From Streptomyces sp. SAI-127 (GTDB lineage Bacteria > Actinomycetota > Actinomycetes > Streptomycetales > Streptomycetaceae), in the NCBI RefSeq assembly GCF_029894425.1, contig NZ_JARXYJ010000001.1:5394001-5458000 (forward strand): DNA of 64,000 nt, in the 5' to 3' direction. The notes under the pieces were generated by a model that was given only the letters and a program-made list of their open reading frames with translations, did not search any database and was not told where the DNA came from. This document shows, in pieces, positions 39,430-40,425 of the stretch (position 1 is the first letter of the stretch; the number at the start of each line of letters is the position of its first letter). The position numbers and the translations under genes are program-made.

Positions 39430-39451
39430 GACGGTGCACCGGGCCATGAAA

Positions 39452-39482
39452 AAAGACCCCGGTCGCGATGACCGGGGTCTTC
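39452..39482 (-). terminator. Intrinsic terminator after tRNA-Gly(GCC), second copy
   Basis: AGACCCCGGT (39454-39463) pairs with ACCGGGGTCT (39471-39480); read leftwards it is followed by a T-rich run (TTTTTT). Confidence 0.85.
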
Positions 39483-39489
39483 TTCGTGG

Positions 39490-39562
39490 AGCGGACGACC
39501 AGGTTCGAACTGGCGACCTCAACCTTGGCAAGGTTGCGCTCTACCAACTGAGCTACGTCCGC
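39490..39562 (-). tRNA. tRNA-Gly(GCC), second copy
   Basis: 73 nt, acceptor GCGGACG/CGTCCGC, U73; anticodon arm identical to the first copy (loop TTGCCAA, GCC). Differs from the first copy in acceptor and T stems. Canonical D loop GG and T loop TTCGAAC. Confidence 0.95.
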
Positions 39563-39642: not shown

Positions 39643-39714
39643 AGCGGGTGACAGGAATTGCACACTGCGCCTTCCCCCTGGAAGGGGGATGTTCTACTAC
39701 TGAACTACACCCGC
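39643..39714 (-). tRNA. tRNA-Gly(UCC) with aberrant T and D arms
   Basis: 72 nt. Acceptor GCGGGTG/CACCCGC, U73; anticodon stem TCCCC/GGGGA with loop CTTCCAG gives UCC. The D loop is AGTAGTA (A at position 18 instead of G). The T region reads CAGTG-TGCAATT-CCTGT: TGC replaces TTC and the normal five-pair T stem cannot form (only 53-61 and a G-T pair match); a shifted four-pair stem GCAG/CTGT is possible. The two GCC tRNAs in the window are canonical by comparison. Either an unusual decoder of GGA or a specialised glycyl-tRNA. Confidence 0.85.
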
Positions 39715-39838
39715 GTGTACTCCGTGAGCTGGGCCTTTTCGGCCTCGCCCCTCGGCGTGCTCCAGACTCTAGCTGACCAGGTGGGGTGCAACGCAAGTCG
39801 GTTGGCCCGAGGGGCGGGTGACCCGGCGTCGACGGGCG

Positions 39839-40156
39839 CTACCGCGCCTCGGCGAACGCCTCGTAGACCTTCTTGGGGATCCGTCCGCGGGCGGGGACGT
39901 CCATCTTGTTGGCCTGGGCCCAGGCCCGGACGGCCGCCGGGTCGGGAGCGACCTCGGTCTGCCGGTACGCCTTGCCGGACCTGGACCGCTTGCGGCCGGC
40001 CTCCACGTAGGGCTCGAGTGCCTTACGCAGTTTCTTGGCATTGGCTTGATTCAGGTCGATCTCGTACGACTTGCCGTCGAGTCCGAAGGCGATCGTTTCC
40101 GCCGCTTCCGAGCCGTCGATGTCGTCAAAGAGAGTGACCACGACCTTCTGCGCCAC
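39839..40156 (-). CDS. Lsr2-family nucleoid-associated protein (paralogue)
   Basis: 105 residues from GTG 40156. N-terminal dimerisation domain (AQKVVVTLFDDIDGSEAAETIAFGLDGKSYEIDL), then the C-terminal DNA-binding domain with AVRAWAQANKMDVPARGRIPKKVYEAF; the RGR core that inserts into the minor groove of AT-rich DNA is present. Streptomyces carry two Lsr2 proteins; location beside purS suggests the second, LsrL-type one. It would silence AT-rich foreign DNA. The divergent AT-rich intergenic region is a likely target of its own. Confidence 0.94.
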   Translation of the reverse strand: MAQKVVVTLFDDIDGSEAAETIAFGLDGKSYEIDLNQANAKKLRKALEPYVEAGRKRSRSGKAYRQTEVAPDPAAVRAWAQANKMDVPARGRIPKKVYEAFAEAR

Positions 40157-40425
40157 GAATATCGGTCCCTTCGTGCGGCACGTTGTCAATTCATTTGTAC
40201 AGTGCCCGACAATGCATTGTGAAGCTCGACTAAATCCTTCCGCGTGTCCGAGCGCAATAGGTATCGGGTGTCGATCTGAGATCTTTCCGGGAAATTTTCA
40301 CGGACGTCCGCCCCGGTGCTGGGCCGTGATGGCCGTCACGTAGTTTCCTACAACTCAACGCGCGTAGAAATTTTGTGCGGGTAGTCTGAAGGAACCTGCT
40401 CAGCACCACACCACCGGGAGTGCCA
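40157..40425. promoter_or_regulatory. AT-rich divergent promoter region of lsr2-like and purS
   Basis: 269 nt clearly richer in A/T than the rest of the window (for example AAATTTTCACGG and GTAGAAATTTTG). It contains a perfect palindrome CAATGCATTG (40210-40219). It must hold both promoters and is the kind of DNA Lsr2 binds. Individual -35/-10 elements are not certain. Confidence 0.5.

Follow-up and report, generated by a model that had tools for sequence, protein, structure and literature searches.

Streptomyces genomes carry an unusual tRNA-Gly(UCC), here called class I, which is a real, conserved and specialised tRNA, a variant of the kind known from staphylococci and most likely non-ribosomal and destined for FemX.

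The class I gene and its surroundings

The window, a stretch of 64,000 nucleotides from Streptomyces sp. SAI-127 (the home genome), holds class I at 39643..39714 on the minus strand; the CCA 3' end is not part of the gene. A tRNA-Gly(UCC) had been proposed at this place in the original prediction, and Rfam bears this out with a tRNA match of 53.5 bits that covers all 71 model positions; an ARAGORN run made no call for the gene. The A in place of G18 and the GUGC at positions 53–56 had also been read correctly: the D loop is AGUAGUA, with A at position 18 and G at position 19, the T loop is UGCAAUU and the anticodon is UCC, with a C32-G38 pair in the anticodon arm. In place of the TψC loop and G18G19 of a canonical elongator, class I thus has UGC and A18. 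The description of the T stem as broken holds for the standard register, in which G53-C61 is the single Watson-Crick pair beside G51.U63, but not for the Rfam alignment, which gives a 4-nt variable loop and five pairs (G49.U65, C50-G64, A51-U63, G52-C62 and, after one conserved bulged U, G53-C61). As judged from the aligned sequences, a stem of five pairs interrupted by a bulged U describes this arm better than a broken one. The support for this form is its alignment with class II, the second GUGC tRNA-Gly described below, since neither folding nor two-sided T-stem change supports it: single-sequence folding gave no bulged T arm for any of three class I sequences, folding of the window's copy favours a GCGC/GUGC hairpin over the T arm, and no two-sided compensatory change was found in the T-stem pairs of class I.

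All flanking features lie on the minus strand. Upstream, a hairpin-like leader (GCACGCCGAGGGG...) was recognised by eye at 39715..39763; the class I upstream regions compared look alike, and the leader (GCACGCCGAGGGG...GGCC) is similar across the compared genomes beyond the apparent needs of a processing leader. It is preceded at 39766..39800 by a promoter-like element, CGACTTGC followed 21 nt on by TAGAGT, and 136 of 199 class I copies are preceded by a TA[AG]AGTC motif, the remainder including second tandem copies and short flanks. Downstream are a canonical tRNA-Gly(GCC) at 39490..39562, called by both ARAGORN and Rfam, and, 3' of it, a terminator-like hairpin with a T run at 39448..39484, read from the sequence; a consensus scan called neither a promoter at 39766..39800 nor a terminator at 39448..39484. 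The anticodon-loop motif TTGCCAA occurs within about 180 nt downstream of class I in 181/199 copies. The gene upstream of class I, at 39839..40189, is lsr2 (Pfam Lsr2). Class I is therefore neighboured by lsr2 and a normal tRNA-Gly(GCC), with no ligase, Mom or DAM-GNAT gene adjoining.

Conservation and relation to other tRNAs

BLAST found class I in all 121 sampled genomes of the genus, 100% identical in 40 of them and with 85% as the lowest best match; "genus" here is the grouping of the sampling tool, which we take as Streptomyces from named records. A covariance model (R1) built from class I and class II recovered the 72-nt class I gene in 77/77 genus genomes of an order sample, which partly overlaps the first sample, and nothing above 71.8 bits in the 13 genomes of other families included there. 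At 74 bits or more in a class sample, R1 matched 14/14 in-genus genomes and 0/144 others (best other score, 71.8 bits), and the 16 R1 loci inspected outside the genus proved to be canonical GTTC tRNAs. A pattern for GUGC tRNA-Gly(UCC) had matches in 24/24 in-genus genomes and in 16 of 222 other genomes of the class; the 16 outside loci were rejected as GUGC tRNAs, none exceeding 9 of 12 acceptor plus T-stem pairs. Neither R1 nor the pattern, which is blind to non-UCC anticodons or other 3' ends, found a GUGC tRNA-Gly(UCC) outside the genus. When named records were scanned for the T-arm/acceptor motif, at least 118 stretches were obtained; among the matches listed, 78/80 belong to Streptomyces and the other two to Actinacidiphila cocklensis and "Actinobacteria bacterium OK074". 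Class I was not found on plasmids, where the search returned only two records at 76% identity (Paenibacillus, Nonomuraea). Some genus genomes hold two to four copies.

Variation was followed in 199 distinct copies comprising 42 distinct sequences, a set selected on GTGC[AG]A that cannot count GUGC itself; among 60 copies (14 sequences) from BLAST-selected, motif-free loci, GUGC was present in all 60. Within the larger set, the T arm varies only at two T-loop positions plus, once, the bulge, A18 occurs in 199/199 copies and G19 is kept throughout. The acceptor, D and anticodon stems vary on both sides in a compensatory manner across the 42 sequences, and the 32-38 pair is always Watson-Crick (C-G in 24/42, U-A in 18/42). 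Every one of the 42 has U33, UCC and A37 in a normal 7-nt anticodon loop. G1-C72, C2-G71, G3-C70, C35, C36 and U73, which we take to be the glycine charging determinants, are invariant.

These data bear on two readings of the gene as something other than a working tRNA. A decaying tRNA pseudogene might look odd in the T arm and be missed by ARAGORN, yet it would hardly persist in 121/121 genomes, 40 of them with identical copies, keep compensatory pairs and stand in two to four copies in some genomes; conservation excludes it, as constraint is not relaxed, and we lend this reading practically no credence. A regulatory RNA or decoy of tRNA-like form, for instance against tRNA-Gly-targeting toxins, would suit the unusual T arm and the alternative hairpin seen in folding, and toxins acting on tRNA-Gly (FaRel2, GNAT toxins) are known from the literature. 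It is nonetheless highly improbable, because the charging determinants and the acceptor stem are kept with compensation and a decoy would need these less.

Whether class I is the sole UCC tRNA had been singled out beforehand as a decisive check on the original prediction. The home genome carries a canonical tRNA-Gly(UCC) (locus L048), and 61/61 genus genomes tested have one with at least 90% identity, which rules out class I as the only GGA decoder; the prediction thus withstood this check. The canonical Streptomyces tRNA-Gly species (UCC, CCC) resemble class I in acceptor stem type, U73 and the anticodon CC; overall identity to class I is 63% for UCC and 73% for CCC, and, unlike class I, they combine GTTC and G18G19 with a regular T stem that includes G51-C63. 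GTTC occurs in 69/70 ARAGORN tRNAs of the home genome, the lone exception being the class II gene, and the only tRNAs there with C32-G38, apart from class I, are class II and three tRNA-Pro(GGG).

A translational isoacceptor whose unusual T arm is tolerated, perhaps one used in a particular growth phase, would account for the ordinary anticodon loop of 7 nt, with U33, UCC and A37 in 42/42 sequences, as well as for the promoter-like element and the tRNA-Gly(GCC) neighbour. We regard this as quite improbable, given that a canonical UCC tRNA is also present, that A18, G55 and the bulge show no reversion in 42 sequences (GTGC-selected; 14 unselected), that few other home tRNAs have C32-G38, and that the anticodon loops of class II, which has this T-arm core too, are not suited to decoding.

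Two further observations concern tRNA-derived sequences in these genomes. Many short, clustered 3'-half copies (positions 46–74) of the canonical tRNA-Gly(UCC) occur in G004, G012, G025, G046 and other genus genomes, and the clusters resemble attachment sites of serially integrated elements. The home genome also has a second tRNA-Cys-like sequence (L012 309-399; C1:6395322-6395419) whose anticodon region contains an insert; it adjoins a normal tRNA-Cys, and ARAGORN labels it tRNA-Gly(tcc).

A candidate glycyl donor for FemX

The suggestion that this gene serves wall synthesis or other tRNA-dependent ligases instead of translation is supported in part, by conservation in 121/121 genomes, by likeness to staphylococcal-type tRNA-Gly and by the FemAB family, which is likewise present in 121/121. 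With somewhat better than even confidence, we propose that class I is a dedicated non-ribosomal glycyl donor, charged normally and poorly delivered to the ribosome, with FemX as its most likely user. We infer charging by GlyRS, weak EF-Tu binding owing to G55, A18, the bulge and A51-U63, and a non-ribosomal fate. GlyRS would recognise the usual glycine determinants; class I would lack ψ55 and the 18–55 contact, and A51-U63 and the bulge would sit where EF-Tu binds, so that the glycyl-tRNA may stay free and be taken up by FemX, which in Streptomyces adds the one glycine that makes up the peptidoglycan bridge.

The closest known parallel is the non-proteinogenic tRNA-Gly(UCC) from which staphylococci build their pentaglycine bridges; it has in common with class I the GUGC, A51-U63, UCC, C32-G38 and an altered D loop. 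A staphylococcal-type copy on the IMG/VR contig L397, which resembles Staphylococcus phages, shares 69% identity with class I; the pattern that found this copy required A51-U63 and GUGC, and those two are not independent likenesses. Like its staphylococcal counterparts, class I has GUGC, is extra to a canonical GGA-decoding tRNA-Gly and resides in a host with Fem-type ligases; the home FemX (L381:1024-2175, minus strand) has S. aureus FemX (6snr) as its nearest PDB structure. Of the two D-loop replacements typical of that group, at G18 and G19, it shows only the first (A18, G19 in 199/199 copies). In the review PMC4052509, the S. aureus wall tRNAs have UU or CU at 18–19, the altered positions 18–19 and A51-U63 are given as marks of weak EF-Tu binding, A49-U65 and A51-U63 are the weak EF-Tu pairs of the staphylococcal type, and G49-U65 is a strong pair. 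Class I has A51-U63 but G49.U65 for A49-U65, which on that account counts against weak EF-Tu binding. It further differs in its T-stem bulge, its actinobacterial host and its usually single core copy, and in that Fem use is here a proposal.

Other observations weigh against the donor reading or parts of it. The retention of U33, UCC and A37 means that class I could decode, the neighbourhood of lsr2 and a normal tRNA-Gly in place of a ligase gene speaks against FemX, and a T stem that folding does not predict speaks against a settled structure. In the class sample, FemAB scored over the cut-off in 6/6 genus genomes and 29/63 others; because no GUGC tRNA-Gly(UCC) was found in those outside genomes, Fem ligases do not generally require one. 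The class I tRNA goes with FemX; the presence of FemX does not imply the tRNA. Within the CC-licensed PMC literature, which leaves subscription journals and preprints outside its scope, we found no published account of the Streptomyces class I tRNA.

A mobile second tRNA and its possible phage relatives

Class II, the second GUGC tRNA-Gly(UCC) of the home genome (L011 301-370; C1:5652581-5652650), scores 84.7 bits with R1. Class II matches occur in 63/121 genus genomes, or 62 without G035, where the match is partial and no gene is present, with one to six matches each. On plasmids it was found at 136 places in 70 records, 68 of Streptomyces and two of Streptantibioticus, with no annotated features beneath it in the plasmid rows listed; none was found in phage records. 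The copies are solitary and, by eye, mostly have a -10-like element, a leader and a terminator-like hairpin. No recurrent neighbour emerged, as no protein family was present in more than five of 20 regions and no Pfam family in more than two of 66 proteins scanned, and six plasmid contexts compared, out of the 70 records, have nothing obvious in common. In 65 class II copies the anticodon loop is either 7 nt with a pyrimidine at position 37 (54 copies) or 6 nt (11 copies). Decoding tRNAs are known to have a purine at 37, and a pyrimidine there is absent from all other home tRNAs; class II is therefore unlikely to decode. It retains the glycine charging set and has the T-arm core GNAG(N)GUGC-A--CC in common with class I.

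Class II associates with genome size (p 4e-7) and shows no association with extra Fem genes (Mann-Whitney p 0.37), both tests counting G035 as positive despite its partial match. Nor is it tied to DAM-GNAT in Streptomyces, being present in 4/7 DAM-GNAT genomes versus 63/121 overall. That class II copy number does not track FemAB gene number would fit a different account of class I, in which the main user of the glycyl donor is not FemX but one or more other Gly-tRNA enzymes that act in specialised metabolism or modify proteins or lipids, and that class II may supply as well. Gly-tRNA-dependent enzymes in Streptomyces natural-product pathways, DhpK and BD-12 Orf11, are described in PMC12945691. 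This account is unlikely, if less so than an isoacceptor: with class I in every sampled genus genome, its user should be universal too, FemAB is the one candidate tested that is, and Mom exceeds the cut-off in 6/121 and DAM-GNAT in 7/121 genomes, both being absent from the home genome.

Among selected tRNAs, class II is 59–74% identical to five GUGC phage tRNA-Gly versus 42–49% to canonical Streptomyces tRNA-Gly. For class I the identity to the GUGC phage tRNA-Gly is 54–66%, and class I is a core chromosomal gene without an adjoining Mom or DAM-GNAT gene. An IMG/VR scan with the pattern CTTCC-N13/14-AGGTGCAANNCCT, which requires GUGC and A51-U63, gave 54 stretches, 21 of them with acceptor-like pairing. 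Two of these, L397 and L409, are staphylococcal-type, and the low-GC stretches L390, L392, L396 and L406 are probably chance matches. Nine lie on high-GC contigs. A fusion gene of a DAM-like and a GNAT-like part adjoins the tRNA in five of these stretches, and two further high-GC contigs carry this gene, as found in the DAM-GNAT search; a Mom gene adjoins the tRNA in L393, L394 and L436. Among the nearest genes scanned in L395, L401 and L423, neither Mom nor DAM-GNAT was seen. On two of these viral contigs, a tRNA-Gly-like GUGC sequence lies near a TET-associated glycosyltransferase gene (L395, near 2042) or a TROVE/Ro60-type gene (L401, near 11700).

The same association appears when the search starts from the enzymes. 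The DAM-GNAT fusion gene (PF22555 + PF22559) was found at 15 IMG/VR loci, six being contigs already known through the tRNA; at seven of the nine others a tRNA-Gly adjoins the gene. In six of these nine, ARAGORN places a tRNA-Gly, or a tRNA resembling one, at most 250 nt upstream, one of them GUGC (L450), and an acceptor scan revealed a hidden tRNA beside L457 and another 1.8 kb from L452; at L448 neither ARAGORN nor the acceptor scan showed a tRNA. Over all 15 loci, ARAGORN tRNAs are present in 12 and GUGC in seven. In Streptomyces, DAM-GNAT occurs in 7/121 genomes, and a tRNA-Gly adjoins four of eight loci, one with GUGC. Thirteen records of named phages have a DAM-GNAT match, and the four examined all show a tRNA-Gly or tRNA-Gly-like sequence, annotated as tRNA-Gly(tcc) at DAM-GNAT in Jeon and Megabear and unannotated in Soos and Clawz. 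Searched at E values up to 10, ten DAM-GNAT loci gave no Rfam tRNA, not even the annotated one of phage Jeon, so that the hidden phage tRNAs rest on the acceptor scan.

Mom genes, too, often have a tRNA-Gly right at their end, at times overlapping the Mom gene (L464-L567, L393, L394, L436 and L569-L571). For Mom, 104 IMG/VR loci were considered, a set that combines 24 with the top 80 of 478 and includes two query contigs; some of these loci are close relatives of each other. ARAGORN tRNAs are present in 36/104. In 34 cases the tRNA starts less than 180 nt from where the Mom match ends, and the remaining two are tRNA-Ala about 1 kb away. The 34 comprise 26 tRNA-Gly and eight with an anticodon that ARAGORN could not read, seven of which show TC. 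A custom detector, less sensitive than ARAGORN and with 0 hits in 82 control windows, added L464 and L465. With the query contigs left out, a tRNA-Gly lies beside Mom in 34/102 loci, none with a GUGC T loop (that of L493 is GUUC), and 68/102 are without a recognised tRNA-Gly. Named Mom phages number 280 records; of four examined, three have a tRNA-Gly or an apparent part of one, namely an annotated tRNA-Gly(ccc) at Mom in Appa and an apparent 3' part of tRNA-Gly(UCC) at the Mom end in Wyborn and Zartrosa, and none was seen at the Mom locus of phiEf11. The phage genes beside Mom and DAM-GNAT resemble class I as tRNA-Gly with odd loops, some with GUGC, but most have GUUC; the link to phages is therefore glycine, not GUGC.

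Class II and the phage neighbours have a wider reach than the class I gene itself, as they raise a second question, the source of the glycyl group in Mom modification. In PMC7824862 the Mom donor is given as an acyl-CoA such as glycyl-CoA. The phage tRNA-Gly genes directly at Mom, eight of them with an anticodon that ARAGORN could not read, and those beside DAM-GNAT suggest glycyl-tRNA as donor for both modifications; a search of the CC-licensed PMC literature, with subscription journals and preprints outside its scope, found no such proposal for Mom. Tentatively, and with slightly less than even confidence, we suggest that dedicated non-ribosomal glycyl-tRNAs are widespread: in Streptomyces a core species would serve FemX, beside a second, mobile species akin to phage tRNA-Gly, and phages would carry their own, sometimes unfit for decoding, beside Mom or DAM-GNAT, with glycyl-tRNA and not glycyl-CoA donating for Mom-type adenine modification of DNA. 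To our knowledge, wall glycine kept apart by a tRNA of its own is otherwise known only from staphylococci. If the proposal for class I is true, the largest antibiotic-producing genus separates wall glycine from translational glycine by a dedicated tRNA.
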